From: Nitrosophilus alvini
GTDB lineage: Bacteria > Campylobacterota > Campylobacteria > Campylobacterales > Nitratiruptoraceae
Assembly (NCBI RefSeq): GCF_015100395.1
Contig: NZ_AP022847.1
Location: 1,366,501 to 1,430,500, forward strand
Direction: 5' to 3'
DNA: 64,000 nucleotides
Under the pieces are notes generated by a model, which searched no databases, was not told the DNA's origin, and was given only the letters and a program-made list of their open reading frames with translations. A program made the translations under genes and the position numbers. The stretch's first letter is position 1. Every line of letters starts with the position of its first letter. Positions 21,448 through 47,887 of this stretch are shown piece by piece.

Positions 21448-21480
21448 TTTTACAACCATTTTACAAAAATCGGGTATAAG
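21448..21480 (+). promoter_or_regulatory. Putative response-regulator box plus -10 (site 1)
   Basis: Direct repeat TTTTACA (21448-21454) and TTTTACA (21459-21465), period 11, followed after exactly 9 nt by TATAAG (21475-21480), 56 nt before the downstream start codon. The same architecture occurs at 27673 and 28610. An 11-bp tandem site in place of a -35 is typical of OmpR/PhoB-family activation. A second hexamer, TATAAT at 21495-21500, is an alternative -10. Confidence 0.65.
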
Positions 21481-21520
21481 TATCCTGATACTATTATAAT
21501 TTATTATAAAAGGAGCCAAT

Positions 21521-21862
21521 ATGAAAAAACTGGTTATTGTTTCTCTTCTGATTTGTATGGCAAGTGCTCAGATGGATCTTACACAAAAAGGCAAAATTCT
21601 TTTTGAAAAATATAATTGCAATATCTGCCATAAGCCCAAAGACGACGCTGCAAGCATCGGACCCTCTCTTGAGACCATAGCCATACATTACCTGGGAAAT
21701 GAAAGACAGTTAGTAGAGTTTTTAAAAGGTAACGCCAAACCTATAATTGACCCACAGAGATTTGAAATAATGAAACCGCAGCTTTATAAAACTAAACATA
21801 TGTTCGAGGAAGATTACAGAGCTTTATCATATTTTTTGACAAGCGTACATAAAAACAGATAA
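21521..21862 (+). CDS. Periplasmic monohaem cytochrome c
   Basis: 113 residues with signal peptide MKKLVIVSLLICMASAQ and one CNICH motif at about residue 34 in the class I-like context GKILFEKYNCNICHKPKDD. Candidate axial Met is in FEIMKPQ. It ends with the usual C-terminal helix YRALSYFLTSVHK. A GGAG site precedes the ATG. It is the first gene of the multihaem cytochrome region and carries regulatory site 1, so a soluble periplasmic electron carrier for that system is a reasonable inference. Confidence 0.85.
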   Translation: MKKLVIVSLLICMASAQMDLTQKGKILFEKYNCNICHKPKDDAASIGPSLETIAIHYLGNERQLVEFLKGNAKPIIDPQRFEIMKPQLYKTKHMFEEDYRALSYFLTSVHKNR

Positions 21863-21925
21863 TGTCACAAAAATGTTACTATTCTCAACTCTTCCGTTTT
21901 TTCTGACGTTTTTTGATAATTTTTA

Positions 21926-21964
21926 TTGATTTTTGTCAAAGACTTTTCATATTATTTGTACTAT
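21926..21964 (+). promoter_or_regulatory. Candidate promoter region of dodecahaem gene (FNR-like box, degenerate RR box)
   Basis: TTGATTTTTGTCAA (21926-21939) matches the FNR/CRP-family half-site pattern TTGAT-N4-(A/G)TCAA. Overlapping it, TTTGTCA (21932-21938) and CTTTTCA (21943-21949) have the 11-bp period and are followed after 9 nt by TACTAT (21959-21964), a degenerate version of the site 1 architecture. Which of the two is real cannot be told by eye. Confidence 0.35.
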
Positions 21965-22049
21965 CATTAATTTTGGGCTTGCATAAATATTATTTATGAA
22001 AGCTATTATACATGTCATTAAAAATTCTTATATACTCAAGGAGTGCCAA

Positions 22050-23414
22050 ATGAAATTTTCAACAAAAAAGTTATTACTTTTATGTTTGGCAGTTTCACTG
22101 GTTGTATTTAGCGGCTGTGCTCCTACGGCAACAGAGAAAACCGTAGAGAAAACAAAAACGGAAAAACAGAAACCTGTTAAGTCTCCCGCTAAAGAAACGC
22201 CAAAACCGGAACCTGTTGCCGCACCTCAGCAAGCCACGCCTCAACAAACTGCACCAACGGCGGCTCCATCACCCGTACCGACAGATCAGCAAAAAAGCGG
22301 TGAACCCTTTTTCGAACCTAACCTGCTATCTGAAAAAGAGGTAGTCCATCCGCCGTTTGAATGGGGTGACTGTACGGTTTGTCATAAAGATAAAAATCCC
22401 GAAAAGAGCAAAAAATATGATCTGATTATGGATACTCCCGATCTATGTTATCAGTGTCATGATAAAAATCTCAAAGAGGGTAAAAAGTTTATCCACGGAC
22501 CTGTAGCAGCAGGTGCATGCACGGCCTGTCATAATCCGCACAAATCAAAAAATAAAAGGCTTTTAGTTGCATCAAATATAAATGAACTCTGTACATCATG
22601 CCACGTGGCCAAAGGAGAGTTTTTACATAAAACACAAAATATTCACCCTCCTGTTCAGGATCAGTGTATAAATTGTCACGATCCACATACGGAGGATTAC
22701 AAATTCCAGCTCAAAGCCGACGGAAAAAAAGATCTCTGCCTTATGTGTCATGCTGACAAAAAAGAGTGGATTACAAAATCCATCAATAAACACGGTGCTA
22801 TAAACAGACCAAGAGGCTGTCAGGAGTGCCATGATCCGCATGGTACGGGACAACCAAAAATGATAAAAGCAGCTACCGTAAAAGATCTGTGTCTGCAATG
22901 TCACAATCAGCCTCTCAAAAGAGATGAAGACGGTGTTAAATTAATAAACATGGCAAAACATCTTGAAGAAAATCCTGACTGGCACGGGCCGATACAGTGG
23001 GGAGACTGTGCTATGTGTCACAACCCGCACGGAAGTAACAACTTCAGAATGCTAAAAAAACCGTTCCCACCAACATTTTATGCAAGTTTCGATGAAAAGA
23101 ACTATATCTGTTTTGAGTGTCATGAATCCAAAAAGATCACAGAGCCTAAAACAACAGAATATACAAATTTCAGAAACGGAGATGTCAATCTTCACTTTGT
23201 TCATGTTGATAAGAAAAAGGGACGAACTTGCCGAGCATGTCACGATTTCCACGGAACAAAAGACTATCCTCACCATTTAAGGAAAAAGACAAAATTCGGA
23301 AAGATAAACTTCCCGATCAGATATATCGAAACACCTACAGGAGGTTCATGTGCTCCTGCATGCCATGCAAGAAGATACTATGACAGGGAAAAACCCATTG
23401 TCAATACAAAATAA
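22050..23414 (+). CDS. Dodecahaem c-type cytochrome lipoprotein
   Basis: 454 residues starting at the ATG at 22050, which has a CAAGGAG site; the upstream ATG at 21996 lacks one. The signal sequence ends in a lipobox FSGC, and +2 is not Asp, which favours the outer membrane. A Pro/Lys/Gln/Ala-rich linker (about 20-85) leads to a haem domain with 11 CXXCH motifs and a final CAPACH (CX3CH). Many are followed by NPH or DPH, the paired-CXXCH pattern. The C-terminal 200 residues are closely matched by the protein at 44980-46524, including RYIETxTGGSCxPACH. Probable electron carrier between periplasm and outer membrane; the exact partner is inferred. Confidence 0.88.
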   Translation: MKFSTKKLLLLCLAVSLVVFSGCAPTATEKTVEKTKTEKQKPVKSPAKETPKPEPVAAPQQATPQQTAPTAAPSPVPTDQQKSGEPFFEPNLLSEKEVVHPPFEWGDCTVCHKDKNPEKSKKYDLIMDTPDLCYQCHDKNLKEGKKFIHGPVAAGACTACHNPHKSKNKRLLVASNINELCTSCHVAKGEFLHKTQNIHPPVQDQCINCHDPHTEDYKFQLKADGKKDLCLMCHADKKEWITKSINKHGAINRPRGCQECHDPHGTGQPKMIKAATVKDLCLQCHNQPLKRDEDGVKLINMAKHLEENPDWHGPIQWGDCAMCHNPHGSNNFRMLKKPFPPTFYASFDEKNYICFECHESKKITEPKTTEYTNFRNGDVNLHFVHVDKKKGRTCRACHDFHGTKDYPHHLRKKTKFGKINFPIRYIETPTGGSCAPACHARRYYDREKPIVNTK

Positions 23415-23423
23415 GGGACAAAA

Positions 23424-24494
23424 ATGAGGAGAAACAAAGCTTTTGCTCTTCTCCTCTTTGTTTTTATTTTTTTATGGCAGGGAAGAGCAGACAATGGAAA
23501 TCTCGTTATACTATTTCCGAAAAACAGCTCTATTTACGATGATGCTTTTGCATCTATCGTAATCAAAACTGATCCTAAAACAGTAAAAAAAATTGAAATC
23601 TATACCGATTTAAACAAAACCTATACTATTGCCACTAAGCCGGAAAAAAACATTTACTGCAAAAGCATCAGGCTAAAATTAGGTAAAAATAGAATTTTCG
23701 TAACAGCATATGATCAAAAAAGAGGAAGTTATGAAAAAAAAATCGACCTCTTTTATCGGTCAGAAGTACATGAGGGTGCTGACGAAGCACCGTATAAATA
23801 TGAAAAATTCTTTTTCCACACAGATAAAAATGAAAAAACCTGCTCAACCTGTCATAACATGGAACCTGACAAACAGATGGCACAAAAAAAGAAGATAAAG
23901 GCAAAAGGTTCGGCAACAACAGATATAGAAGTGCTTGAAAACCCTCAGGACTCAAACTGTTATACTTGTCACAATCCTTTAACTTCCAGAAAAAACGGTC
24001 ATGCCCCATCGGTTAACTTTATGTGCGGCGTATGCCATACAGGCAAAGCAGCTGAAAACAATCTAGATGAGGAAGGAAAAAGTAAATATCTGCAACCAGA
24101 TCCCATAATGGAACGCTGTTTTGTGTGTCATGAAAGAATAGAGAAGATTATGAAACACAATAGATCCGATCACGGTCCTACAAAACTGGGACGCTGTAAC
24201 AAGTGTCATAATCCACACTCTTCTGAAAATATTTTTTTTCTTAGAAAACCCATATGGGAACTGTGTACAACATGTCATGCAGAAAAAGCCACGGGAAAGC
24301 ACGTTATTTCCAGTTTTGTTTATATAAGAAACAAAGGTGGACATCCTACACGCGGCAGACCTGATCCTTCACGTCCCGGACGAGAACTAGTCTGCTCCTC
24401 ATGTCATAATCCTCACGGTTCCATGGGACCGTTTCTACTACGTACAAAAGGACCCGTTCCGTTCAGTGTCTGCAGAAGATGCCACAAAAAATAG
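23424..24494 (+). CDS. Octahaem c-type cytochrome with N-terminal Ig-like domain
   Basis: 356 residues. The signal peptide (MRRNKAFALLLFVFIFLWQGRA) is followed by an all-beta region of about 85 residues that looks like an immunoglobulin-like fold (VILFPKNSSIYDDAFASIVI..., KKIEIYTDL, GKNRIFVTAYD). Eight CXXCH motifs then run from CSTCH (about 139) to CRRCH three residues from the end. It lies 9 nt after the dodecahaem gene, so they form an operon. Two related proteins are at 42866-43879 and 43873-44970. Its place in an electron chain is inferred. Confidence 0.87.
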   Translation: MRRNKAFALLLFVFIFLWQGRADNGNLVILFPKNSSIYDDAFASIVIKTDPKTVKKIEIYTDLNKTYTIATKPEKNIYCKSIRLKLGKNRIFVTAYDQKRGSYEKKIDLFYRSEVHEGADEAPYKYEKFFFHTDKNEKTCSTCHNMEPDKQMAQKKKIKAKGSATTDIEVLENPQDSNCYTCHNPLTSRKNGHAPSVNFMCGVCHTGKAAENNLDEEGKSKYLQPDPIMERCFVCHERIEKIMKHNRSDHGPTKLGRCNKCHNPHSSENIFFLRKPIWELCTTCHAEKATGKHVISSFVYIRNKGGHPTRGRPDPSRPGRELVCSSCHNPHGSMGPFLLRTKGPVPFSVCRRCHKK

Positions 24495-24527
24495 CATAAG
24501 CCGGCTCTTTGTCAACACGGCTTATGC
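24494..24527 (+). terminator. Stem-loop after octahaem gene
   Basis: A perfect 10-bp stem pairs GCATAAGCCG (24494-24503) with CGGCTTATGC (24518-24527) around a 14-nt loop directly at the stop codon. The T-run is poor, so this may be a weak terminator or an mRNA 3' stabilising element. Confidence 0.5.
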
Positions 24528-24710
24528 CAATCTCTACTATAAAATATTTTTATGAATTATGTTTTCTTGTTAAAAACTCTTTTTGTATCAATGAGTAAAA
24601 ATGTTACTTTACTGCTAAACTGTTTTTATTGATTGTAAAAAAATCTTTTCATTTAATACAATTTTTTTTATTTATTGTATAATAATATGTTTTAATACCA
24701 ATAAAGTAGA

Positions 24711-25832
24711 ATGATTTATACTATGAAAAAAATCTTTGTTGCGATCACACTCATTATTTCGGCCGCTATTCTCGTTCTTATATTCAATCTTAACGAAAAA
24801 AGAGAAATAAATAAAAAAAATATGGCCTATGACAATATAAATAAATTCCTTTCCCGCACTCTTGATTCCGAAAAAGCACAATCATTATCTCTCGCATTGG
24901 CACTAAGTAAAAACAGAGCTATTGCAGATGCTATACTTGAAAACAATACAAAAAAATGTTTTACCATCCTTCACGATACAACCGAATCTTTTATAAAACA
25001 TCTAAACAGAAAATATATATACACACAGATTTTCGGGAAAGGGCTTCTTATATTTGCACGCAGCTGGGATGCAAGCGCTTCAGGAATACCGCTAGAGGCA
25101 AGAAGAGAAGATTTGATTGAAATAATAAAAACCAGAAGACCTAAAGCGGTCATAGAGACTACAGTTCCTACCGGTATAAAAGCTTCTGCACCGATAATTT
25201 ATAACGGACATATAATTGGAATTTTGGAAGTCACTACACTTCTTGATAGAGTAGTTGCAAGATTACGGGAATATAGTATAGAGACTATACCGATCATAAG
25301 AACAGAACTTATCTCTAAAGGTGATATTATAGAAAACAATCCTTCCGTACATAATTTCAAAATAGCCAATAAAAACTACAATAAACATATTTCACAAATA
25401 CTAGGATCACTGAGCAAAGATGATTTCAACAAACTTATCCATACCGACTATCTAAAAAAAGAGGGGATGTTTTTTGCGGCCTATCCGATAGAGAACGATT
25501 ACGGAAAAAATCTTGGATATTTTATTACTGTGGTATCAAATGAAAATTTCGAAAATTTTGCAGGAAAACAGAAAACTCTGTTAAAAAGTATCTTTACTAT
25601 GGAAAGTACCAAAGAGGACATTTATCACTATGTAAATTCAAAAAGTGAAAATATTTTTGAGACAATGAGCCCGGAATATATTCTGCATTTCAAAAACAGA
25701 GTAGATGAAAAAGATCGATTATATTTCAATAAAGCTGCAAGAGAAAAACTACAAAAACTCTCTAAAGAGGAATTGATAGACTTGATACTTCACAACTACC
25801 ATAAAACAAAAAAGGAAGGAAAAATAAAGTGA
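24711..25832 (+). CDS. Membrane-anchored periplasmic Cache-type sensor protein
   Basis: 373 residues with one N-terminal transmembrane segment (about 5-24) and a long periplasmic region. The segment FGKGLLIFARSWDASASGIPLEARREDLIEIIKTRRPKAV and the IYNGHIIGILEVTTLLD that follows look like a double-Cache ligand-binding domain of the type usually fused to chemoreceptors or kinases. No kinase, MCP or cyclase domain follows; the C-terminus is a short helical segment. It overlaps the response-regulator gene by 4 nt, so it is probably the free sensing component of that system. An alternative start is the ATG at 24723. Confidence 0.7.
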   Translation: MIYTMKKIFVAITLIISAAILVLIFNLNEKREINKKNMAYDNINKFLSRTLDSEKAQSLSLALALSKNRAIADAILENNTKKCFTILHDTTESFIKHLNRKYIYTQIFGKGLLIFARSWDASASGIPLEARREDLIEIIKTRRPKAVIETTVPTGIKASAPIIYNGHIIGILEVTTLLDRVVARLREYSIETIPIIRTELISKGDIIENNPSVHNFKIANKNYNKHISQILGSLSKDDFNKLIHTDYLKKEGMFFAAYPIENDYGKNLGYFITVVSNENFENFAGKQKTLLKSIFTMESTKEDIYHYVNSKSENIFETMSPEYILHFKNRVDEKDRLYFNKAAREKLQKLSKEELIDLILHNYHKTKKEGKIK

Positions 25833-26485
25833 AAATACTTCTTTTAGAGGACGAGTATACGCTCAGAAAATCGATAAAAGAGCTCCTTGAAGAGAGCGGA
25901 TATGTTGTAGAAGAGTATTCGGAAGGTAAAGCTGCACTGGAAGCTATTTTCAATTCAAAATTCGATCTTTTACTTCTGGATGTAAATGTTCCGGGTATCA
26001 ATGGATTTGAGCTTTTGGAGAGTTTGAGAAAAAACGGCATCGACACACCTACAATTTTCATAACTTCACTAACAGAAATCGACAGTCTGGAAAAGGGGTA
26101 TGATCTTGGATGCTGCGACTATATCAAAAAACCTTTCGATATGAAAGAATTGAAACTCAGAGTTGCTTCAGCACTTAGACTTGCATCTTTACGATCTAAC
26201 AAAGACACAATAAAACTTCCCGGAGGATACGAATATCATACAAAATGTTTTACTCTTACAAGAAACAATGAAGAGATAGGACTCTCCAAGACAGAAAAGA
26301 TGATACTCGATCTTTTTATAAAACATAAAAATCAGGTAGTCACTCCGGAAATGATAACAGAATATGTATGGGATGATTATGTGGATCCCGCGAATGTAAG
26401 AGTTCAGATAAACAACCTGAGAAAAAAACTAGATAAAGATTTGATTAAAAATATCAGAGGTGTAGGATACAAACTTGAAGCTTAA
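25829..26485 (+). CDS. OmpR/PhoB-family response regulator
   Basis: 218 residues, GTG start overlapping the sensor gene (GTGA). The receiver domain has acidic LLEDE at the start, phospho-acceptor Asp51 in FDLLLLDVNVPG, Thr/Ser in FITSL and Lys in YIKKPFD. A winged-helix Trans_reg_C domain follows with LTRNNEEIGLSKTEKMILDLF and VRVQINNLRKKL. Proteins of this class bind tandem half-sites with about 11-bp spacing. Three such sites precede cytochrome genes on either side of it (21448, 27673, 28610), so it is the prime candidate regulator of the cluster. Confidence 0.93.
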   Translation: MKILLLEDEYTLRKSIKELLEESGYVVEEYSEGKAALEAIFNSKFDLLLLDVNVPGINGFELLESLRKNGIDTPTIFITSLTEIDSLEKGYDLGCCDYIKKPFDMKELKLRVASALRLASLRSNKDTIKLPGGYEYHTKCFTLTRNNEEIGLSKTEKMILDLFIKHKNQVVTPEMITEYVWDDYVDPANVRVQINNLRKKLDKDLIKNIRGVGYKLEA

Positions 26486-27647
26486 GATAGACGAATCAAA
26501 ATTTTCACTGAGATATTCCATTTTATATACTCTCACTGTCCTCGCTATTCTACTTGTACCCTTTGCAATATACGACAACTACACCTATAACCTTGAAGAG
26601 GTTAAAACAGAAATGGCGCTAAAGAAGAAATCCATTCAGATAATAAATGAAATGGAAAAATTTGACAGTAGATTCCAAAGCACTTTTACATTTCCCAGAT
26701 TTAAATCCTATCAGGCAGGCCTGTATGATCAGAACGGCAATCCTATATTTACACTTATCAAAAAACCCATCTCTACACTTAATCTGAAACCAGGTTATCA
26801 TAAACTCGGTAATTACAGATATTTTGTTACAGAATTCAGAGACGGTAGTTATTTTGGAGCAAAATATCTTGTAGTAGGCACAGAATTTAATATATACACT
26901 ATTTTATATAATATAATGATAGTCTTTTTATCTATTTTGGCCATTACTTTCATTTTTTCATTTATTATCCTAAAAAATTTCTCCAAACCTTTCAAAGAGA
27001 TAAACAAAGCCCTGGATGATTTTATAAAAGACTCCATGCATGAGATAAATACTCCTCTGTCTATCATCAATATAAATATAGATATGTTCACGGAAAAATT
27101 CGGAAAAAACAAGTATCTCTCCCGTATAAAATCTGCCGCCAAAATACTCTCTTCTCTCTATGATGATATGAACTATCTTATAAAAGAGCGCACAATAAAC
27201 AGAGCCGAAAAGAAAAGGATAAATTTCAGTGAGTTTTTGAAAAGATCGGTCGATTATTTCAGAGATATAGCAGAGCTTAAAGATATCTCTTTACATACAG
27301 ATATACAAAAAGACATCTATATAAATTTTGTTCCCGCAAAACTTCAGAAAATAATAGACAACAATCTCTCAAACGCCATCAAATACTCAAATGAGGGTGG
27401 AAAAGTGATTGTGTCTTTAAAAAAAGAGAACAATAAAATAATACTAGGTTTCAAAGATTACGGGATAGGTATAAAAGATCCGGCAAAAATCTTCTCCAGA
27501 TACTACAGAGAAGATAATACTAAAGGAGGATTCGGAATAGGTCTAAATATAGTCGGCAAAATTGCAAATGAAGAAAAAATAAAAGTAAATATTGTCTCAA
27601 GCCTCGGAAAAGGGAGCTATTTCGAATATATTTTTCCTGCCAGCTAA
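26475..27647 (+). CDS. Sensor histidine kinase
   Basis: 390 residues, TTG start at 26475 inside the end of the response-regulator gene. Two transmembrane segments (about 14-33 and 140-166) flank a periplasmic region of about 105 residues that looks small and not clearly Cache-like. The H-box SMHEINTPLSI has phospho-acceptor His189. The N-box DNNLSNAIKYSNEGG, the G1 box DYGIGI and GGFGIGLNIV complete the HATPase domain. With the two preceding genes it forms a sensor-regulator-kinase operon positioned upstream of the OmcE-like cytochromes. Confidence 0.92.
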   Translation: MKLKIDESKFSLRYSILYTLTVLAILLVPFAIYDNYTYNLEEVKTEMALKKKSIQIINEMEKFDSRFQSTFTFPRFKSYQAGLYDQNGNPIFTLIKKPISTLNLKPGYHKLGNYRYFVTEFRDGSYFGAKYLVVGTEFNIYTILYNIMIVFLSILAITFIFSFIILKNFSKPFKEINKALDDFIKDSMHEINTPLSIININIDMFTEKFGKNKYLSRIKSAAKILSSLYDDMNYLIKERTINRAEKKRINFSEFLKRSVDYFRDIAELKDISLHTDIQKDIYINFVPAKLQKIIDNNLSNAIKYSNEGGKVIVSLKKENNKIILGFKDYGIGIKDPAKIFSRYYREDNTKGGFGIGLNIVGKIANEEKIKVNIVSSLGKGSYFEYIFPAS

Positions 27648-27735: not shown

Positions 27736-28425
27736 ATGAAAAAGAGAATACTGATAAATATTGGGATTTTTACAGCACTTTCCACATTCTTGTTCGCCCA
27801 GTCAATGGTAGGAACTCAACACGATCTGGGCACAGGATATGGGGGTGATAATGACGAGATATGTGTTTACTGCCACACCCCGCACGCATCCAATGTAAAT
27901 TACGGCGCACCTCTTTGGAATAAACCTATGATAACAACATCATTCAAGATGTACGGAGCAACGACGGAGGGCGTTGCCGGTCAGACCATAGCAGGAACTG
28001 CCACAGATGCATCTCCTACAGGAGCAACTCTGGCATGTCTTAGCTGTCATGACGGTGTCAGCGCAATGAACAGCGTTGTAAACGCCCCAGGTTCAGGCGG
28101 ATATAATACTAACGGAACATATATAGGAAATGACAGCAATCTTCCTAAAACAATGCCTGCAAGCGATATCATAGCTATCGGACTTAACGGTGACTTGACA
28201 AACGATCATCCGGTATCCATAACTTATGTTGAAGGGGTAGCCGGTTTAAAACCTAAAAATACCGCTATTACCGGCTGGAATAATGCTTCGACTATAAATG
28301 ATCTGTTAAGAGACGGAAAAGTGCAGTGTGTAAGCTGCCACGACCCCCACGATCCTACATATAGTAGATATCTCAGACACAGAAATACCGCAAGCGAACT
28401 TTGCAAAACCTGCCACGATAAATAG
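27736..28425 (+). CDS. OmcE-like tetrahaem cytochrome (candidate nanowire subunit 1)
   Basis: 229 residues with signal peptide ending near FLFAQS and four CXXCH motifs: CVYCHTPH, CLSCHDG, CVSCHDPH and C-terminal CKTCHDK. Spare histidines are GTQHDLG near the mature N-terminus, TPH, NDHPVS, DPH and one in LRHR. The order HDL ... ICVYCHTPH ... CLSCHDG ... HPV ... CVSCHDPH ... CxTCHDK resembles the Geobacter OmcE family, whose members polymerise into haem-stacked filaments. It is strikingly similar to the next gene, so a duplication is likely. A GGGGG-type ribosome-binding site precedes the ATG. Assignment to a filament is inference. Confidence 0.8.
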   Translation: MKKRILINIGIFTALSTFLFAQSMVGTQHDLGTGYGGDNDEICVYCHTPHASNVNYGAPLWNKPMITTSFKMYGATTEGVAGQTIAGTATDASPTGATLACLSCHDGVSAMNSVVNAPGSGGYNTNGTYIGNDSNLPKTMPASDIIAIGLNGDLTNDHPVSITYVEGVAGLKPKNTAITGWNNASTINDLLRDGKVQCVSCHDPHDPTYSRYLRHRNTASELCKTCHDK

Positions 28426-29645: not shown

Positions 29646-29675
29646 GAACAAAAATTATTCACGAGGAGAATGTTC

Positions 29676-31443: not shown

Positions 31444-31469
31444 TTTGGAAAACAAAAAGGATTTTGTAT

Positions 31470-32426: not shown

Positions 32427-32454
32427 TCTTATAGATAATATTGTGGTGGGTTTA

Positions 32455-35198: not shown

Positions 35199-35208
35199 GG
35201 AGGCTGCC

Positions 35209-37971: not shown

Positions 37972-40900
37972 ATGACAAAAGTTATACAGAAGTTATGGTC
38001 AATTCTGATTTCGATGAAGACTATGGTCGTTCTTACACTTATATTCGCTGTCTCTATAGCTGTAGCTACATTTATCGAAAACGATTACGGGACTGATACA
38101 TCCTGGGCTCTGGTATATGCAGCAAAATGGTTTGAAGTGCTTCAGGTATTACTTGGATTGAATCTTCTTGGAAACATAATAAGATTCAAACTATATAAAC
38201 CCAAAAAACTGCCCGCTTTTATATTTCACGTAGGTTTTCTTATCATTCTTTTAGGCTCCGGCCTTACAAGATATATGGGTTACGAAGGTGTAATGCATAT
38301 AAGAGAAGGGATGAGCGAGAACAGAATGCTCTCTGCAGACGCCTTTTTACAGATAACGGCTAAAAATGGAAACGAAAGCGTTTACAAAGAGAAAAAGCTT
38401 TTTATTTCGGCTATAGGCGGAAACGATTTTGATGAGAGTGTTGAGATAGGCGGCAAAATTTTGCATGTACGTTACAAAGATTTTATAAAAAATGCCGAAA
38501 AAGTAGCAATTCCAGATGAAAACGGAAATCCTTTGGTGGTATTTACCGTTGCCACACCATCGGGTCCTGAAAAATATTTTCTCTCTTTTAACGAATATAC
38601 CGATCTTGGTCCTTTTGTCCTTGCGTTTGGAAAAAAGGAGCCGACAGATATACAAAAACCTTATCTATTTATCTATCTAAAAGATGGTAAATTTTATTTC
38701 AAATCAAACAAAGATATAGGCTACTTTAAAATGGCCGAACAGGAAAAAGGCCTTTTTGAAGCCGGCAAAGAGTATCCTTTCACAACAAAAATGATGTATC
38801 TCATCAACGGGATACAGGTTGTTCCTCAAGAAGCTCTCCTAAAAGGCATCAAAAAAGTGGTACGTGCCGAAGAGAATAGTAACGGTATGAAGATGAAAGG
38901 TACAAAACTCTCCGCCCTGATAGTTGAAGCAGAACTTGACGGTGAAAAAAAAGAGGTAGCTCTCATGGGATTGGGCAGAAGATTTAAAGGATTTACTGAA
39001 AACGTCAATATAGGAGATACCCAGATTTCTCTAGAATGGGGCTCAAAAGAGATAGAACTTCCTTTCTATCTCTATCTTAAAGATTTTGTAATAGAAAAAT
39101 ATCCAGGCTCTATGAGTCCATCCTCATATGAGAGTCATGTAATACTCTATGATGAAAAAAACGGAGTCAAAATGCCTTATAGAATATACATGAACAACAC
39201 TTTGGAATACGGCGGATTCAAATTCTTCCAGTCAAGCTACGATCAGGACGAAAAAGGCACTATACTTTCCGTAAACCACGATCCAGGTAAATGGCCCACT
39301 TATCTTGGATATTTTCTTCTCGGACTCGGCTTTTTACTAAACCTGCTAAATCCTTACAGCAGATTTGGAAAACTGGCACGGACAAGATATATTCAGAGTG
39401 CAAAAAAACCTGCAGCAGCGGCTATTGCGTTTCTTATGCTGTTATTTACAAACAATCTTAATGCAGCCAATGAACATGCCGGACATAATCACTCTCAGAT
39501 TGATATGAAGCATATTATCGAAACAGTCAAAAAGATAGATAAAAAGCATGCTGAAAATTACGGCTCAATTCTATTACAAAGCCACGATGGAAGAATCAAA
39601 CCTATCGATTCTGCAGCAATAGACATTTTAAACAAAATTCACGGTTCAGACACAATGCTGGGGCTTACACACAACCAGATAATTCTTGGGATGGCTGCAA
39701 AACCAACATACTGGCAAAGAATCAAAATGATAAAAGTTAATCATCCCGGAGTCAAAAAACTATTAGGAATTCCTGAAGATGAAAAGTATTTTGCATTTGT
39801 AGAGATATTTGACAAAAACGGTAACTACAAGCTAGCGGAGGCGGTAGAAAAAGCCACAAGAAAAAGACCCGGAGAAAGAGACAAGTTTGATAAAGAAGTT
39901 ATCAAAGTAGATGAGAGACTCAACATCGCATATATGGTATATTCGGGTGAATTTATGAAAGTATTTCCGCTAAAAGGCGATCCAAACAAAACATGGTATT
40001 CTCCCGCAGCAGCTCTGAAAACTTTTCCACCGCAAGAGGCCAAAATCATAAGAGCAATATTGGAAAAGAATTTTAAGGGATTGAACAAGGGGCTAAGCAG
40101 CGGAGACTGGAGTCTTGCGGACGAAGCGGTAAATGAGATCAAAGCCTATCAGCAAAAATATGGAGCTGATATTATCCCTTCAAAATCAAGAATTGAAGCA
40201 GAACTTCTTTATAACAGGCTCGATATTTTTAACAGACTTGTTCCTGTTTATCTTCTATCAGGCCTTGTGCTGCTTTTTTTGATTTTCGCCAGACTTATGA
40301 AGCCTTCTTTAAACCTTGAAGTCCCTACAAAAATTGTTGTAGGAATTTTGATAATAGCTTTTTTAGCACATACATTTAATCTCGGACTTAGATGGTACAT
40401 TGCCGGACATGCTCCATGGAGCAACGGTTATGAAGCGATGCTTTATATCTCTTGGGCAATAATACTATCTGGTATTCTTTTTGCAAGACAATCCGAGTTT
40501 GCTGTCTCATCAACCGCTATATTTGCGGGTATCACTCTTTTTGTAGCGCATCTTAGCTGGCTGGATCCTCAAATTACCACTATGGTTCCGGTATTGAAAT
40601 CATACTGGCTGACTATTCATGTTTCTGTTATAACTGCCAGTTACGGATTTTTGGGATTGAGTGCGCTTCTTGGATTTATAGCATTGATTCTTTTTATCAT
40701 GCTCGGTTTTACAAAAAAAGATGAAACTAGAAAGCAGATAATACTCAATATCAAAGAAGCCGGCAGAATTAATGAAATGTCTATGATTGTAGGTCTATCG
40801 CTTTTGACCGTAGGAAATTTCCTGGGAGGCGTATGGGCAAACGAGTCATGGGGTAGATACTGGGGATGGGATCCAAAAGAGACATGGGCACTTGTTACAA

Positions 40901-41184
40901 TTCTAGTATATACTGCTGTTGTTCACCTCCGGTTTATTCCTAAAGTCTGGAACAGTTTCAATTTTGCCGCTCTGTCTGTAGTGGCATACAGTTCTGTTAT
41001 CATGACATACTTTGGGGTAAACTACTATCTATCCGGTCTTCATTCATACGCAGCAGGCGACCCCGTTCCGGTCCCAACCTGGGTATATTACGCTATAGTG
41101 ATCGTTGCCGCCATAATAGCGGCCGCTTACAGAAACAGAAAAGTTTTTGAACAACTTCAAAAATCTGCTATTAAAATCTCTTAA
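37972..41184 (+). CDS. ccsBA: CcsBA-type cytochrome c haem lyase (system II fusion)
   Basis: 1070-residue fusion of CcsB/ResB and CcsA/CcsC. Four N-terminal transmembrane segments with the periplasmic ResB region cover about 1-480. A His-rich linker (NEHAGHNHSQIDMKH) and a large soluble part follow. The C-terminal CcsA part contains the WWD haem-handling motif WGRYWGWDPKETWALVT (about 960). The protein exports haem and attaches it to CXXCH in the periplasm, the maturation type used by epsilonproteobacteria. Placement at the end of this cytochrome cluster suggests dedicated or co-regulated capacity for the 78 haem sites, including the CX3CH and CX4CH variants. Confidence 0.95.
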   Translation: MTKVIQKLWSILISMKTMVVLTLIFAVSIAVATFIENDYGTDTSWALVYAAKWFEVLQVLLGLNLLGNIIRFKLYKPKKLPAFIFHVGFLIILLGSGLTRYMGYEGVMHIREGMSENRMLSADAFLQITAKNGNESVYKEKKLFISAIGGNDFDESVEIGGKILHVRYKDFIKNAEKVAIPDENGNPLVVFTVATPSGPEKYFLSFNEYTDLGPFVLAFGKKEPTDIQKPYLFIYLKDGKFYFKSNKDIGYFKMAEQEKGLFEAGKEYPFTTKMMYLINGIQVVPQEALLKGIKKVVRAEENSNGMKMKGTKLSALIVEAELDGEKKEVALMGLGRRFKGFTENVNIGDTQISLEWGSKEIELPFYLYLKDFVIEKYPGSMSPSSYESHVILYDEKNGVKMPYRIYMNNTLEYGGFKFFQSSYDQDEKGTILSVNHDPGKWPTYLGYFLLGLGFLLNLLNPYSRFGKLARTRYIQSAKKPAAAAIAFLMLLFTNNLNAANEHAGHNHSQIDMKHIIETVKKIDKKHAENYGSILLQSHDGRIKPIDSAAIDILNKIHGSDTMLGLTHNQIILGMAAKPTYWQRIKMIKVNHPGVKKLLGIPEDEKYFAFVEIFDKNGNYKLAEAVEKATRKRPGERDKFDKEVIKVDERLNIAYMVYSGEFMKVFPLKGDPNKTWYSPAAALKTFPPQEAKIIRAILEKNFKGLNKGLSSGDWSLADEAVNEIKAYQQKYGADIIPSKSRIEAELLYNRLDIFNRLVPVYLLSGLVLLFLIFARLMKPSLNLEVPTKIVVGILIIAFLAHTFNLGLRWYIAGHAPWSNGYEAMLYISWAIILSGILFARQSEFAVSSTAIFAGITLFVAHLSWLDPQITTMVPVLKSYWLTIHVSVITASYGFLGLSALLGFIALILFIMLGFTKKDETRKQIILNIKEAGRINEMSMIVGLSLLTVGNFLGGVWANESWGRYWGWDPKETWALVTILVYTAVVHLRFIPKVWNSFNFAALSVVAYSSVIMTYFGVNYYLSGLHSYAAGDPVPVPTWVYYAIVIVAAIIAAAYRNRKVFEQLQKSAIKIS

Positions 41185-41310: not shown

Positions 41311-42015
41311 TTGAAAAAAATGTCCGCAGTGATTATTGTGCCTGTTTTGCTTATATCTTCTTTGTGGGCATCGCCAAAACTGGAATTTAAAGAAAGATTG
41401 ATCAAATCAGCAACAGAAAAAGCCCATAAAGGTGACCCAAATGCACAATTTACTTTAGGGGAGATGCACTATCTCGGTTTTCTGGGGAAAAAAGATTATG
41501 AAAAGGCTATTGAATGGTATGAAAAGGCTGCCAATAAAGGACATACCAAGGCAATGTTCAATCTTGGATATATGTACTTTACCGGCAAAGGAGTCGACAA
41601 AGATTATAAAAAGGCTCTCTATTGGTTTAAAAAAGCTGCAGAGAAGGGCGATCCTAAAGCTCAACTCTATCTTGGCGATATATACTATAAAGGGCTTGGT
41701 GTAGAAAAGGATTATAAAAAAGCTTTTTACTGGTACAAAAAAACTGCCGATATGGGATATCCCAAAGCACAATATATAGTAGGCAATATGTACAAAAGAG
41801 GAAAAGGGGTTGAAAAAGATATTGACAAAGCGGAGTATTATCTCAAAAAATCCGCCATGCAAAGCTGTTCAGATGCCGAACTTGAACTGGGAAAAATGTA
41901 CTTAACCGGAGAGGGAGTAGAAAAGGACGAAGAGAAAGCAAAACAGCTTTTGAAAAAAGCATTAAAAGACGGGAAAAAAGAGGCCGAAGAGCTGTTGAAA
42001 AAAATAGAAGAGTAG
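41311..42015 (+). CDS. Sel1-repeat protein, exported
   Basis: 234 residues with TTG start (AAGGAA site 6 nt before it). A signal peptide ends near SLWAS. Then come about six Sel1-like repeats of 36 residues each, of the form ALYWFKKAAEKGDPKAQLYLGDIYYKGLGVEKDYKK, from about 40 to the end. Sel1/TPR-like solenoids are scaffolds for protein contacts. It is convergent with a second Sel1 gene of the same build, from which it is separated by 52 nt. A role in the cytochrome system is only positional. Confidence 0.85.
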   Translation: MKKMSAVIIVPVLLISSLWASPKLEFKERLIKSATEKAHKGDPNAQFTLGEMHYLGFLGKKDYEKAIEWYEKAANKGHTKAMFNLGYMYFTGKGVDKDYKKALYWFKKAAEKGDPKAQLYLGDIYYKGLGVEKDYKKAFYWYKKTADMGYPKAQYIVGNMYKRGKGVEKDIDKAEYYLKKSAMQSCSDAELELGKMYLTGEGVEKDEEKAKQLLKKALKDGKKEAEELLKKIEE

Positions 42016-42028
42016 ATATAACTTTCAT

Positions 42029-42054: not shown

Positions 42055-42067
42055 GGGTTTCAAAACT

Positions 42068-42829
42068 TTACCCTTCACTGTTATCAAGACCGGGCAATCT
42101 CTCCTTCATTATCACCACTTCCCACCCGTAAGTATCAAGTATCTTTTTGGCACTTTTATTTCCATTCATATAGGCCTGCTGTATCCAGTGCTTAGCCTCA
42201 TCCATATCTTTTGGAACACCTTCGCCTGTCAGATACATTTTTCCAAGATATAACTGAGCCTCCGCATGCCCCTGGGCTGCAGCCTTTTCAAAAAGCTCAT
42301 AAGCCATTTTAAAATCTTTTTTTATACCAGTTCCTGTATAAAACATTTTACCCAGAGCAAAATGTGCTTGCGGATAACCCTGATTTGAGGCTTTTGTGTA
42401 CCAGTAAAGAGCTTTACCGTAATCAGCCGGTACTCCTTCTGCATTGTAATACATTGTTCCAAGATATAACATTGACTTAGGATCGCCCTTCTCTGCAGCT
42501 TTTTTAAACCAATAGAGAGCCTTTTTATAATCTTTTTTAACTCCTACTTCATTGTGATACATATACCCAAGATTGAACATTGCCTTGGTATGTCCTTTAT
42601 TGGCAGCCTTTTCAAAATATTCAATAGCTTTTTCATAATCCTTCTCAACACCAAGCCCTAGATAATACATGTCGCCTAATGCATAAAGTGCGTTTGGATT
42701 CCCTTGCTGTGCAAGTTTTATGACAGAAGAATATGCTCTTTCAATAAACTCGCTTTTTGCATTTGCACTAGAACCGCTTCCCGCAATCATAACCGACACT
42801 ATTAGCGACAGTAGTACGCCTTTTCTCAT
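42068..42829 (-). CDS. Sel1-repeat protein, exported (second copy)
   Basis: 253 residues from ATG at 42829, which has an AAGGAGT site; the longer frame is an unsupported extension. The signal peptide MRKGVLLSLIVSVMIAGSGSSANA is followed by Sel1 repeats, many identical to those of the gene at 41311 (for example KGHTKAMFNLGYMYH and KKALYWFKKAAEKGDPK). The pair is a recent inverted duplication. It lies downstream of the octahaem gene on the same strand (36 nt), so it may be the last gene of the 47887-42068 operon. Confidence 0.85.
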   Translation of the reverse strand: MRKGVLLSLIVSVMIAGSGSSANAKSEFIERAYSSVIKLAQQGNPNALYALGDMYYLGLGVEKDYEKAIEYFEKAANKGHTKAMFNLGYMYHNEVGVKKDYKKALYWFKKAAEKGDPKSMLYLGTMYYNAEGVPADYGKALYWYTKASNQGYPQAHFALGKMFYTGTGIKKDFKMAYELFEKAAAQGHAEAQLYLGKMYLTGEGVPKDMDEAKHWIQQAYMNGNKSAKKILDTYGWEVVIMKERLPGLDNSEG

Positions 42830-42865
42830 TCTATACTCCTTGCTCTTTGATTTTGCCCGCACCAG

Positions 42866-43879
42866 TTATTTTTTATGGCATCTTCTGCACCACAGCATAG
42901 TCCCTCTGCCCATATACCCTTTCAGCATAAAACCGTTGTTAGAAACATGCGGAGTATGACAACTTGTACATGATAACTCTTTAGTAGGATCCGTAGGGTC
43001 TTTCTTTCCTTTTGTCGGATGGGATTTTCTTGAGAATGTTGTTACAACATGACCTTTTGTTTTCTTATCCACGTGACATGCAGTACAAAGATTCCATACT
43101 TTATATCTCAAAAATTTCTTATCTTTTCCTCCGTGAGGATCATGGCATTTATTACATCTGCCGTCATCAACCGGTTCGTGTCTGTATTTCTCTTTGTAAA
43201 ACTTCTTCTCAAATTTTTTATGGCACTCAAAACATACCGGTGCGATAGGGTCAGGATTGATAAATCTGGAGGCACCTTTATATTTCTCATTAAACTCACC
43301 GGTTTTTCCAGTATGACAGCTTGTTGCACATAACCAGTTTGCAGCAGGTGCGTGCATATACTTCTCAAAAAATATAGGTTTGTGGCAGTCAAAACAGTTT
43401 GATTCATATATATCTTCGAAAGCTATCCCTTTTTGTTCGTTTACACTCATATCATGACATTCAGAACAGATCTTCTCATTCTCTTCGGTATGAAAAAACT
43501 GCTTGTGAAAAATTTTAGGAGGATATCTGTATTTTTTATATAGAATACTTTTGTAATAGACTTGCCTGATAGCTTCATACACTTTTCTATCTTTAGAGTA
43601 AGCTATAACCTTTATTTTATTTACACCCAAATTTAGCTTTACATTAAGGCAAAAATACTCCTCATGATCACTCTTAACCTCTACGTTTCCGCTTAATTTA
43701 TCACCGACAAAAACAGAAATCCTATCTACTCCGCTACCTTTTTTAACGACTACAGCGGCATATTTAGAATAGTATATGTCCTGTCCATACGGCTTTATAA
43801 GCTCAAATTCTCCTCCAAATGCGGAAATGGAAAAGAAAAGTAGAATAAGCTTTAAAATGCTCTGTACTTTTTTCACCAT
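42866..43879 (-). CDS. Octahaem c-type cytochrome with N-terminal beta domain
   Basis: 337 residues, signal peptide ending near ISAFGG. An all-beta region of about 90 residues (IKPYGQDIYYSKYAAVVVKK ... VNKIKVIAYSKDRK) precedes seven CXXCH and one CX3CH (CATSCH). The last, CRRCHKK, is at the C-terminus. It is a paralogue of the gene at 23424-24494, with the same order of spacings such as EKICSECHDMS and DGRCNKCHDPHG. A GGAGG site sits before the ATG, and the preceding stop codon overlaps nearby (AGATGGTGA). Periplasmic or surface-exposed electron carrier by inference. Confidence 0.87.
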   Translation of the reverse strand: MVKKVQSILKLILLFFSISAFGGEFELIKPYGQDIYYSKYAAVVVKKGSGVDRISVFVGDKLSGNVEVKSDHEEYFCLNVKLNLGVNKIKVIAYSKDRKVYEAIRQVYYKSILYKKYRYPPKIFHKQFFHTEENEKICSECHDMSVNEQKGIAFEDIYESNCFDCHKPIFFEKYMHAPAANWLCATSCHTGKTGEFNEKYKGASRFINPDPIAPVCFECHKKFEKKFYKEKYRHEPVDDGRCNKCHDPHGGKDKKFLRYKVWNLCTACHVDKKTKGHVVTTFSRKSHPTKGKKDPTDPTKELSCTSCHTPHVSNNGFMLKGYMGRGTMLWCRRCHKK

Positions 43880-44970
43880 CTGCCTCCGGAACTTGCAAGA
43901 TCAAGGCAGACATTACGCATATTTGCAAATTTCTCTCTCAACAAAAACTTTCTATCCGATACATGGGGATTATGACAACTTATACAGTTAAAATCGCCTG
44001 TTATAAATCTTTTCTCAATCTCTTCTCCATTTTTATATCTGGTTTTGAACAATGAGATATATTTTCTTTTTGAACTCTTATCTGCATGACATGTGGTACA
44101 GAGTTTCCATACGCTTTTTCTCAAAAAGTTTTTATTTACGTCAGATGAGTGGGGATTGTGGCATTTATTACACTTGCCTGCTCCAACAGGATCGTGTTTA
44201 ACTTTTTTACTGCTCCATATTTTATGGTTTCTCTTATGGCATTTAAAACAGGTATTTCCGACAGGATCTGGATACAGAAATTTTGACTTTCCTTTATACT
44301 GCCTGTTTTTAGCCCCGATTTTCCCGTTATGACATGGCAAACAAACAAAATTTACAGTAGGAGCATGGGCAAATTTCTTATAGATTAAAGATTTATGGCA
44401 GACAAAACAGTTAGATTCGGTTACATCATAAAATGCTACTCCCTCTTCCTCATTAACGCTCATGTCATGACAAGAGCTGCACATTTTATCAAATTCGCCG
44501 TTATGAAAGAACTTTTTCTCATAACCTTCCGGAACAATTTTATAAAATTTTGATAAAAAAGCTTTTCTGTAAAAATGTATCTTTTTTCGGGCTTTTTTTT
44601 CTCCGTTTATATATGCAACAACCTTTACTGAATGCTCACCGAAAGGAAAGTTGAAAGTTTGACAATATGTATCTTTATCCTTTTCGATTTTTATTTCAAC
44701 TCTTTCATTTTGACTTGTATATATAATTATTTTATCTATTTTTTTATCATATATTTTAACTGCAACAGATATATACTCTTCCTCATATACCCCTTTATCT
44801 GCAGGCTGTAGAATATCTATGGGATCATATTTCGCTTTTTTGATAAGAGATACGATTATCCCGTTTTCATCTTGGTTATTGTTGTTTGTTTGGGCAAACA
44901 AGAGTACCTCAAAAGAAAAAAAGAGAAGAATACAGAGAGCCAGTTTGGTTATGATCTTCTCTTTTCTCAT
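43873..44970 (-). CDS. Heptahaem paralogue lacking the terminal haem motif
   Basis: 365 residues with signal peptide ending near LLFAQT. An N-terminal beta domain of about 100 residues (ILQPADKGVYEEEYISVAVKI ...) precedes seven CXXCH motifs matching haems 1-7 of the neighbouring octahaem proteins. Where those end in CRRCHKK, this one reads NVCLDLASSGGRW and stops. The first Cys is kept but the second Cys and His are lost. No single-base shift that I can see restores a CXXCH. Its stop overlaps the start region of the next gene. It is a likely duplicate of that gene. Confidence 0.85.
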   Translation of the reverse strand: MRKEKIITKLALCILLFFSFEVLLFAQTNNNNQDENGIIVSLIKKAKYDPIDILQPADKGVYEEEYISVAVKIYDKKIDKIIIYTSQNERVEIKIEKDKDTYCQTFNFPFGEHSVKVVAYINGEKKARKKIHFYRKAFLSKFYKIVPEGYEKKFFHNGEFDKMCSSCHDMSVNEEEGVAFYDVTESNCFVCHKSLIYKKFAHAPTVNFVCLPCHNGKIGAKNRQYKGKSKFLYPDPVGNTCFKCHKRNHKIWSSKKVKHDPVGAGKCNKCHNPHSSDVNKNFLRKSVWKLCTTCHADKSSKRKYISLFKTRYKNGEEIEKRFITGDFNCISCHNPHVSDRKFLLREKFANMRNVCLDLASSGGRW

Positions 44971-44979
44971 TTTTTGCCC

Positions 44980-46524
44980 CTATTTTTTAAATACGTCTTC
45001 GCTGTACTTATTCTTCTGTTTTACTCTGTCATACTCGTATTTCTTATGACATGCCGGCTGACAAGAACCACCCGTTTTTGTTTCGATATACCTGATAGGG
45101 AATTTTATGCCGCCAAATTCCGTATATCTTCTGATAAGATGCGGATATTTTGAAGCATGCTCATCATGACATGCCCTACACGCCCTACCTTTTTTATTAT
45201 TTACATGCAGATAGTGAAGATTCACTTTTCCGTCTCTAAAATCTGTTTTTTCAGAATATTTGTCTTTTATCTTCTCTATTTTATGGCACTTAAAGCATAT
45301 GAAATCTTTTTTCGCTTCAAAATCATCATAAAACTCTGTGGTATAAGACCTTCTGAGTATACTGAAATGATTTGAACCGTGAGGATTGTGGCAGGCTGCA
45401 CATCCTCCCTCTTTTTTTACATCTTTTATAGGCTTATGCCAATTTGGATTTCTTTTGAGGTGTTCTGCCATATTCATTAGCATTCCGCCGTCTTCATCAG
45501 ACTTGACCTCTTTATTGTGACAACTCAAACACATTTTAACCTGCTGCTTCTTGAGTATACCTTTATGATTTGTCGCATGAGGATTATGGCACTCCAAACA
45601 CTTTCTCTTAGAGTTGTTGACAGCACCATGTTTATATTTGACATTCTCTATCCATTTTTTCATATTCACATGTTTTTCTAATTTAGAATGGCAGTCTAGA
45701 CACAAGCGCATCTTTCCGTCATCTTTCAAAAGAGTTTTAAAGTCGGAAGTATGAGCCTCGTGACATTTTACACAATTATCTTCAGCCGGCTTATGTTTAA
45801 ATGCCGCCTTCATATTTACAGTCTTCTTGATTTTCTTTTTGTTGCCAGGTTTATGACACTTCAAGCAGAGCTGGTTAACGGTATCTGCCTTAAGAAGATT
45901 GTTCGCATTTGACTGATGCGGATCATGACAGTCTATACATCTTCCCTCTTTTACCGGTTTATGGTCAAATTTTTTGTTATATCTTGTCTTATGACACTTA
46001 TAACAAAGCTCTTCTATATTTTTTGTTATAAGTTTACCCGGCTTTGCGCCTGCAGAAACGTGGCAAAGTTCACACGCCCCCATATGAAACGGTTCATGAA
46101 GATACTTTTTAAGAGGTCTGAACTTTTGCGGAAGCTCCTCTGGCTTTAAAAATCTTGCTTTTCTGGCTTTTGCCTTCGTATGCTTTAGTTTTTTCTCTTC
46201 TATGAGTTTTTTTGTTGTAATTTTTAATGCTTCTTCGGTCTTTTTCTCTATAACAGCAATTTTTTTCTTCTCTTTAGCAGTTATTCCTTCACCTATCTCC
46301 TGAGCAATTTTTGTAACATTTATCTCTTTTAGCTCTTCTTCAGTAATCTCGGCATGTGTGGGGTAATACTTATGAGGGCCTTCCAAAACTCCGTGCAGTA
46401 TGCTTTTTGTTATCTTTTGGGCACGTTCTATTTTTTTTGCCAGATCAAACTTGGCAATTGAATAGAATCCCGCTCCGATTACAATAGCAATAATCATCAT
46501 AAGTATTATATTCTTTATCTTCAT
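44980..46524 (-). CDS. Membrane-anchored dodecahaem c-type cytochrome
   Basis: 514 residues from ATG 46524, where AAGG is 7 nt upstream. One N-terminal transmembrane segment (about 5-25) is followed by a charged helical linker (about 30-130, many Lys/Glu). The haem domain has 11 CXXCH and a final CQPACH. The domain is paralogous to 22050-23414, sharing the C-terminal RYIETKTGGSCQPACH and the KSDEDGGMLMNMAEHLKRNP segment. Anchoring by a helix instead of a lipid suggests the inner-membrane-side partner of the chain. The function is inferred. Confidence 0.87.
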   Translation of the reverse strand: MKIKNIILMMIIAIVIGAGFYSIAKFDLAKKIERAQKITKSILHGVLEGPHKYYPTHAEITEEELKEINVTKIAQEIGEGITAKEKKKIAVIEKKTEEALKITTKKLIEEKKLKHTKAKARKARFLKPEELPQKFRPLKKYLHEPFHMGACELCHVSAGAKPGKLITKNIEELCYKCHKTRYNKKFDHKPVKEGRCIDCHDPHQSNANNLLKADTVNQLCLKCHKPGNKKKIKKTVNMKAAFKHKPAEDNCVKCHEAHTSDFKTLLKDDGKMRLCLDCHSKLEKHVNMKKWIENVKYKHGAVNNSKRKCLECHNPHATNHKGILKKQQVKMCLSCHNKEVKSDEDGGMLMNMAEHLKRNPNWHKPIKDVKKEGGCAACHNPHGSNHFSILRRSYTTEFYDDFEAKKDFICFKCHKIEKIKDKYSEKTDFRDGKVNLHYLHVNNKKGRACRACHDEHASKYPHLIRRYTEFGGIKFPIRYIETKTGGSCQPACHKKYEYDRVKQKNKYSEDVFKK

Positions 46525-46565
46525 CCCCACACCTTCTTAAATCTATTTTATCAAAAACATATTAA

Positions 46566-47069
46566 TCAATACTCAAATTTTCCTACAGGACACTTTTCAG
46601 CCGTAACTTTTTTCCTTATCAAATGCTCTTTTGGCGCATGATGCGGATTGTGACACTTGTTACAGTTTATGTTCTCTTTTGGCTGCACAACCGGAATATG
46701 ACACTCAAAACAGAGATCTTGTACAGTAGGTGTCAAAATTGCCGCCGGTTTAGATCTCTTAGGCGCATGACATACCTGGCACGCACCCATAATAAACGGC
46801 GGATGCTTATATTTTTGAACGGGCTTAAATGCTTGTGGAAGCTCTTTTTCATCAATGGTTTTCGAACTGCCAGTATGCTCTTTGATATATTCCACGCTTA
46901 TATTGGGATTTCTGAAAATATGATGTGTTCCCTCCATAATATTTTCCATAATATTTTTATTGATTTTTACGAGCCTAGTAAAGTTGACTTCACTCATTGC
47001 GACAGCGGTAAATATCATTATCAAAACAAGTCCGCCTATTAGAGCTAGTTTTCTGTTTTTATCTGTCAT
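46566..47069 (-). CDS. Membrane-anchored trihaem cytochrome, possibly a shortened dodecahaem copy
   Basis: 167 residues with one N-terminal membrane helix (about 8-26). The linker and MGACQVCHAP, CFECHI and CNKCHNPHH match the start of the dodecahaem protein at 44980 (MGACELCHVS, CYKCH, CIDCHDPH). The protein ends EKCPVGKFEY where the longer one has CLKCH, so haem 4 is cut off after its first Cys. It follows the NapC-like gene by 17 nt. A trihaem relay between the quinol dehydrogenase and the dodecahaem is plausible. Confidence 0.82.
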   Translation of the reverse strand: MTDKNRKLALIGGLVLIMIFTAVAMSEVNFTRLVKINKNIMENIMEGTHHIFRNPNISVEYIKEHTGSSKTIDEKELPQAFKPVQKYKHPPFIMGACQVCHAPKRSKPAAILTPTVQDLCFECHIPVVQPKENINCNKCHNPHHAPKEHLIRKKVTAEKCPVGKFEY

Positions 47070-47086
47070 CTTGGTGCCTCTCTTTA

Positions 47087-47887
47087 TTAATGATGTTCGT
47101 TATGGGCTTCTTCTTCAGCCACTTTTTTTTCTGCTTGTTTTGATGCGAGCTCTTCTTCAGCAGCATAGTTGGGTTTATCTCTTTTGTAATTGTAGTAATC
47201 CTCATCATAAACCGTACCGATCTTATCAAGCTCTTTGCCAAGCTCATAATGTCCAACATATTTATGACAGTCTACACACATAGCCTGTACTTTTTTGTGT
47301 TCTACCTCAACTTTCAGCTTTCCTGAAAAATATGCTTTATGTGCAAGATATGCTTTTTTGTTCGGCTTTGTTGCTCTCAAAAGATTCTCATGGCAATGAA
47401 GACAACTGCTATCATATAGAAAGTTTCTTCTCTCTTCTCTCTTCTCTTTCCAATCTATGTTGAATGTATCGGCAGTCACTTCTGTTACAACATCATGTAT
47501 ACCTGTTCTGGCTTTTTGAACAAGGTAGCCTATGAGAGATTCGTGAGGAAGATGACAATCAGCACACTGAGCGACAAATCCGCTCTCTCCAAATCCCCCG
47601 TGCACACTGTTCAAATAAGCAGTCGCCATAGGTTTCATAGAGTGGCAGGAGCTACAAAAATTGACTCCAGAAGTCTCTTTTACAGCTACAGCAGTAATAT
47701 AAGAAATGACAAGGCCTATAACTAAAAAAAGTCCTCCTATTCCCGCCACAACTTTAAAGCTCAGTTTCGAGCCTCCCGAATTTGAACAAGTATCGTCCAT
47801 TTTCATACCTGTCTCCTCTGTTTTTTTGATTTCATCTGGTTTAGCGCTCTCTTCAACGCTACTGGTTTTCTTCTCTTCGCCATTCAT
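47087..47887 (-). CDS. NapC/NrfH-type tetrahaem quinol dehydrogenase
   Basis: 266 residues. A long N-terminal cytoplasmic tail with Lys/Glu/Ser precedes one transmembrane segment (about 47-72) and four CXXCH motifs: CSSCHSMKP, CADCHLPH, CLHCHENL, CVDCHKYVGH. The Met after CSSCHS is in the place of the NrfH-type axial or quinol-site residue. This family (NapC, NrfH, CymA) takes electrons from menaquinol to periplasmic cytochromes. It is the first gene of the minus-strand operon and has a GGAAGG site. A charged C-terminal extension ends HNEHH. It is the likely entry point of electrons; NrfA is not adjacent. Confidence 0.93.
   Translation of the reverse strand: MNGEEKKTSSVEESAKPDEIKKTEETGMKMDDTCSNSGGSKLSFKVVAGIGGLFLVIGLVISYITAVAVKETSGVNFCSSCHSMKPMATAYLNSVHGGFGESGFVAQCADCHLPHESLIGYLVQKARTGIHDVVTEVTADTFNIDWKEKREERRNFLYDSSCLHCHENLLRATKPNKKAYLAHKAYFSGKLKVEVEHKKVQAMCVDCHKYVGHYELGKELDKIGTVYDEDYYNYKRDKPNYAAEEELASKQAEKKVAEEEAHNEHH

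Follow-up and report, generated by a model that had tools for sequence, protein, structure and literature searches.

The window analysed here, a 64,000-nucleotide stretch of the Nitrosophilus alvini contig NZ_AP022847.1, comes from a genome of 1.81 Mb on a single contig and contains, at positions 21448–47887, an island of cytochrome genes that we read as a candidate extracellular electron-transfer system with putative filament subunits of the OmcE type. Twelve cytochrome open reading frames (ORFs) lie in the island, and recounting reproduced the motif tally of a first-pass annotation (74 CXXCH, three CX3CH and one CX4CH) at the same coordinates. All 78 motifs thus stand, with a conserved CX12CH in the cytochrome c11 raising the number of haem sites to 79. 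The same annotation had listed a NapC/NrfH-type protein in addition to the twelve, of which it is in fact a member. Likewise, its octahaem set holds for the paralogues c8A (23424–24494, + strand; with an N-terminal non-haem domain) and c8B (42866–43879, − strand; seven CXXCH and one CATSCH) but not for the third paralogue c7 (43873–44970, −), which is heptahaem; a frameshifted octahaem gene was ruled out here, as two relatives have the same C-terminus. All 25 matches to the doubled-CXXCH family in the whole genome fall inside the island, which, together with a gene order kept in other genera, argues against a chance assembly.

The candidate filament subunits are three OmcE-like tetrahaem cytochromes, tet1 (27736–28425, +), tet2 (28679–29428, +) and the divergent tet3 (30754–31443 from the homologous start, the ORF opening at 30679, +), with tet1 and tet3 sharing ∼55% and ∼31% identity with tet2, the candidate main subunit. 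Over nearly its full length (residues 9–249), tet2 matches the OmcE nanowire of Geobacter sulfurreducens (PDB 7TFS) with an E-value of 3.2e-23, and OmcE is also what a fold search retrieves: 7TFS is the only significant PDB match of the AlphaFold model of tet2 (E 7e-5, template modelling (TM) score 0.41–0.49), a low-confidence model with a mean predicted local distance difference test (pLDDT) score of 63.7. The OmcE homology proposed in the first-pass annotation was recovered by sequence and by fold search. tet2 also has a close second match in PDB 9YUQ, deposited as a putative multiheme cytochrome c with 16 chains of that sequence. Across an alignment of 52 homologues, all four CXXCH motifs and four further histidines are conserved; seven of the ligand histidines are kept in 52 of 52 and one in 48 of 52, with the N-terminal KH(D/N) included. 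Indeed, tet2 contains exactly eight histidines, each at a conserved ligand position and the same eight as in OmcE, matching the need of four bis-histidine haems. In OmcS and OmcE, a histidine of the neighbouring subunit ligates one haem (PMC9473688), and the OmcE filament has a helical rise of ∼34 Å (PMC12954529). By analogy, the tet proteins may polymerize into filaments. A search for plasmid-borne copies of the OmcE gene found none.

Another OmcE-like domain is found at the N-terminus of c11 (35185–37320, +), where it is fused to a C-terminal multihaem domain. Residues ∼15–244 match OmcE (7TFS, E 1.5e-27), and the equivalent histidine is invariant in nine relatives. Its C-terminal domain has a relative in a 9-haem cytochrome encoded beside 26- and 16-haem genes in loci of Nitrospirota and Deferribacterota. 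In total, c11 has 12 haem sites: ten CXXCH, one CX4CH and the conserved CX12CH (C308/C321/H322). Spacing at this last site is graded among 67 relatives—CXXCH in 11, a few intermediates, CX12CH in 48 and CX13CH in one—while the terminal CH is invariant, and for this reason we read it as a genuine haem site with an expanded loop. OmcZ contains a comparable loop of 14 residues (PMC9473688). No lipobox was found in c11, nor any match to MtrC/OmcA in the family scans. As side observations, some genomes have a second c11 copy, either in tandem (locus L091, at 6743 and 12431) or in another context (L099), and three loci that combine 26- and 16-haem cytochromes with a peptidyl-prolyl isomerase (PPIase; L123, L125 and L128) encode a protein related to the C-terminal domain of c11, in which a canonical CXXCH takes the place of CX12CH. 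The hexahaem gene in one Oet-type locus had no PDB match, which is why an identification as OmcS was dropped.

The island also encodes its own CcsBA haem lyase, a fused ResB–CcsA protein (37972–41184, +; PF01578, PF05140). Genomes with the island have such a second CcsBA, 58–80% identical to the copy in the window, beside a housekeeping copy at ∼45–51%, whereas the eight genomes of this family that lack the island have a single CcsBA each; the exceptions are two fragmented assemblies with an island-type copy only (G248) or partial island-type pieces only (G391). CcsBA accompanies 25 of 34 c11 rows with CX12CH or CX13CH and 4 of 12 other rows, an association that is only suggestive because the rows are not independent. 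That the island CcsBA matures the CX12CH site of c11 would be a guess from this loose association. Wolinella has dedicated CcsBA haem lyases, NrfI and CcsA1, and the unusual motifs CXXCK and CX15CH.

A possible exit through the outer membrane is provided by a 580-aa β-barrel (32443–34185, +), for which AlphaFold2 predicts 28 strands with high confidence (mean pLDDT 92.1, predicted TM score 0.72). The barrel pore expected from the first reading of the locus is hence borne out as a predicted fold, and its top PDB match is MtrB (6R2Q_B, E 1.9e-9, TM 0.39), only slightly ahead of other large barrels. Family scans assigned the barrel to no sequence family, MtrB-type ones included, and a profile search of the PDB returned no sequence relatives. 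Since the MtrB match is weak and close to those of other large barrels, we only infer that a cytochrome sits inside the barrel. A candidate partner would be c12A (21996–23414, likelier start 22050, +), a dodecahaem cytochrome with 11 CXXCH and one CAPACH that is probably an outer-membrane lipoprotein, judging from a lipobox-like FSGC. It matches MtrA (6R2Q_A) with an E-value of 2.4e-12 and scores 128 bits against the DmsE family, below the cut-off of 192; with 12 haem sites, it falls outside the decahaem MtrA/DmsE group. c12A and its 46% identical paralogue c12B (44980–46530, −; N-terminal membrane anchor) are thus distant kin of MtrA/DmsE, in keeping with the relay role suggested for the 12-haem proteins.

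At the far end of the island, convergent to the genes above, lies a tetrahaem quinol dehydrogenase of the NapC/NrfH type (47087–47887, −). Its strong family match (PF03264, E 1e-28), four haems and single N-terminal membrane helix place it in the NapC/NirT family, as had been proposed; it also matches NrfH (2J7A_C, E 8e-7), and its scores with the NrfH, TorC and NapC equivalog models stay under the curated cut-off of each. The gene adjoins ubiE, and an aminofutalosine deaminase gene of the futalosine pathway is also found within the window, in line with menaquinone. Next to NapC is c3 (46566–47069, −), a trihaem cytochrome by motif count and Pfam with an N-terminal membrane anchor. Because the signals visible in the island proteins are export-type or membrane-anchor N-termini, which do not prove a surface location, one might picture instead cytochromes that serve as a store in the periplasm or pass electrons to a soluble acceptor, in either case without filaments. 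This is very unlikely, given that the family scans of the island proteins matched no terminal-reductase family, that conservation of the locus extends to the large barrel and the OmcE homologues, and that CXXCK is absent from the 12 cytochrome ORFs; together with the lack of an NrfA match in the Pfam scans, the latter also sets the island apart from an NrfHA nitrite reductase.

NapC/NrfH-type proteins usually oxidize quinol, and the linkage of NapC to the locus persists in several genera and phyla. Both points favour an outward flow of electrons over the reverse, in which Fe(II), minerals or a partner cell would supply electrons, via the same filaments and conduit, to the quinone pool or oxidases. 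The oxidases and the NapA encoded in the genome could serve as sinks for such an inward current, multihaem conduits can be two-way, with bidirectional transport cited for Mtr (PMC9473688), and related Oet-type clusters have been proposed to take electrons from methane-oxidizing archaea (PMC10553843). On balance, we consider the inward direction distinctly unlikely.

Synteny across Campylobacterota had been named in the first-pass annotation as a way to check its reading, and at least eight other genomes of the phylum (G053, G144, G248, G310, G340, G357, G378 and G386) have the same gene order, some of them with the convergent NapC module. Overall, the OmcE-like profile is positive in 11 of 397 Campylobacterota genomes, representing 6 of 68 genera. 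A scan of named genome contigs retrieved 362 c11 relatives, and the 75 loci kept come from Hydrogenimonas, Sulfurimonas, Sulfuricurvum, Persephonella and other Aquificota, Nitrospirota, Nitrospinota, Bacteroidota/Ignavibacteria and others, with the layout partly conserved in Aquificota and Nitrospirota. Among the 37 loci with at least 7 kb of sequence upstream of c11, an NHL gene is present in 34, an OmcE-like gene in 31, the barrel in 26 and the PPIase in 23. In a midpoint-rooted tree of c11, the Aquificota rows and one contig labelled Bacteroidetes nest with strong support inside the Campylobacterota rows, suggesting a transfer from Campylobacterota to Aquificota; the nearest named row to the c11 of the window is a Hydrogenimonas metagenome-assembled genome (MAG). 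That the same type of module occurs in phyla of vents, sediments and groundwater (judged by record titles), and that comparable clusters are used by syntrophic bacteria, would also suit filaments that are real but serve contact between cells, akin to direct interspecies electron transfer (DIET), rather than mineral respiration. With no partner known and nothing in the locus indicating one, such a role seems unlikely, if still worth bearing in mind.

The island had been described as set between housekeeping genes, which does not apply to its left side: the flanking gene (19525–21336) is a second OadA/PycB-like copy, with the other elsewhere in the genome, and relatives in the same family match it at 31–33% identity or not at the threshold used. 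As this flank is not shared at high identity, a simple insertion between two housekeeping genes is unsupported. A second reason is that, of the genomes checked, only G000 and G386 have ubiE beside the island.

Taken together, we favour, with a probability of roughly 70%, extracellular electron transfer in the outward direction along a chain that ends in OmcE-type filaments. In this chain, NapC would oxidize menaquinol, and the membrane-anchored c3 and c12B together with soluble c7 and c8B would ferry the electrons across the periplasm. c12A with c8A may then hand them on to the 28-strand barrel or send them through it; on the outside, c11 would take them up, and its OmcE-like domain could form the base, cap or seed of the filaments. 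Filaments of tet2, tet1 and tet3 would finally reach solid or distant acceptors such as Fe(III), Mn(IV), sulfur or a partner cell. The PPIase and the NHL propellers probably aid folding, export or assembly, and the island CcsBA would attach haem, perhaps especially at the CX12CH site of c11. A more elaborate version, in which the OmcE-like domain of c11 bases or caps the filament, its C-terminal domain docks on a 28-strand porin–cytochrome conduit, a dedicated CcsBA matures the CX12CH site and the complete module has passed between vent Campylobacterota and Aquificota, is put forward tentatively, with the odds somewhat against it.

Several points weigh against the outward chain. Its support consists entirely of sequence comparison and structure prediction, and within the latter both the poor confidence of the tet2 model and the closeness of the MtrB score to those of other large barrels count against it. 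The lipobox-like sites carry F at position −3, and what cytochrome filaments do physiologically is itself disputed (PMC11077965). Finally, with NapA, NiFe hydrogenases and haem-copper oxidases present in the genome as well, the island is not the sole means of respiration and would be an additional route.

Pfam matches were obtained for the cytochromes and for the remaining accompanying genes named in the first-pass annotation. The latter comprise the six-bladed propeller NHL1 (29670–30770, +; PF01436), with a lipobox-like FTGC, the second propeller NHL2 (34197–35198, +; PF01436) and a SurA-like parvulin PPIase and periplasmic chaperone (31464–32426, +; PF13616, PF13624). They further include a membrane dCache_3 sensor protein without a kinase domain (24711–25832, +; PF14827), an OmpR-type response regulator (25829–26485, +; PF00072, PF00486) and a histidine kinase (26475–27647, +; PF00512, PF02518). 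This regulatory set adjoins OmcE-like genes in G053, G144, G248 and G386 and was not seen in Sulfurimonas-type loci. The island opens with a monohaem cytochrome c (21521–21862, +; PF00034) with a signal peptide-like N-terminus, found at the same position in other island genomes. Following c11, a small exported protein (37238–37822, +) with an ARC6-like IMS (NTF2-like) domain (PF13355, E 3.7e-4, just under the cut-off) travels with the locus across phyla. Two Sel1-repeat proteins (PF08238) are encoded at 41311–42015 (+) and, at the end of the convergent module, 42068–42862 (−).

As for novelty, the first-pass annotation raised the possibility of an undescribed respiratory route in Campylobacterota. 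Each computable step came out in favour of its reading of the locus, but the kind of system, an OmcE nanowire with a conduit, is known, and the locus occurs in other genomes and phyla. Novelty lies in the fused architecture of c11 and its CX12CH site, in a haem lyase dedicated to the island and in the range of phyla covered. A literature search met no account of this locus, with Baquero et al. 2023, a key survey of cytochrome nanowires, and Wang 2022 outside its coverage, so that it is unproven whether the OmcE homologues of Campylobacterota are new. A Sulfurimonas MAG with incomplete porin–cytochrome genes has been linked to extracellular electron transfer (PMC11748539), and Mn(IV)-dependent sulfide oxidation is known from a Sulfurimonas (PMC9122950). 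The island thus represents a candidate route of extracellular respiration for Campylobacterota, where the route of Mn(IV)-dependent sulfide oxidation lacks a description in the literature surveyed. From the quinol dehydrogenase through the periplasmic relay, the large barrel and the filament-like receptor cytochrome to the filament subunits, the parts lie in one locus that is partly conserved over several phyla, so that it offers a defined set of genes open to testing.

Among known systems, the G. sulfurreducens OmcE nanowire shares with the tet proteins, as candidate filament subunits, a tetrahaem make-up, near full-length homology and identical positions of the eight histidine ligands; the island differs in having two to three paralogues plus c11 with its fused OmcE-like domain, and in gathering the barrel, NHL proteins, PPIase, haem lyase and NapC in one locus. 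As in the MtrCAB and MtrA–DmsE conduits (6R2Q), a large outer-membrane barrel, with MtrB as its top, though weak, fold match, is encoded together with an MtrA-related multihaem protein; here, however, 28 strands are predicted without an MtrB family match, the 12-haem protein stays under the DmsE cut-off and c11 has no MtrC match. In NapC/NrfH/CymA systems, the quinol dehydrogenase agrees in family, four haems and single membrane helix, whereas the island protein lies under the equivalog cut-offs and its partner would be a multihaem relay rather than a periplasmic reductase. The dedicated CcsBA proteins of Wolinella, NrfI and CcsA1, resemble the putatively site-specific one of the island in that an extra CcsBA is encoded beside an unusual haem motif, which here is CX12CH rather than CXXCK or CX15CH. 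Lastly, the Oet/OmcX-type cluster is composed of a β-propeller, a PPIase and 16- and 26-haem cytochromes (Skennerton 2017, PMC5539420; Murali 2023, PMC10553843). The island has the propeller and PPIase genes as well as the logic of porin and filament cytochrome in common with it, and the 9-haem protein beside the 26- and 16-haem genes is homologous to the C-terminal part of c11; it differs in that none of its 12 cytochromes has 16 or 26 haems, that its filament type is OmcE-like and that CX12CH replaces CXXCH at one site.

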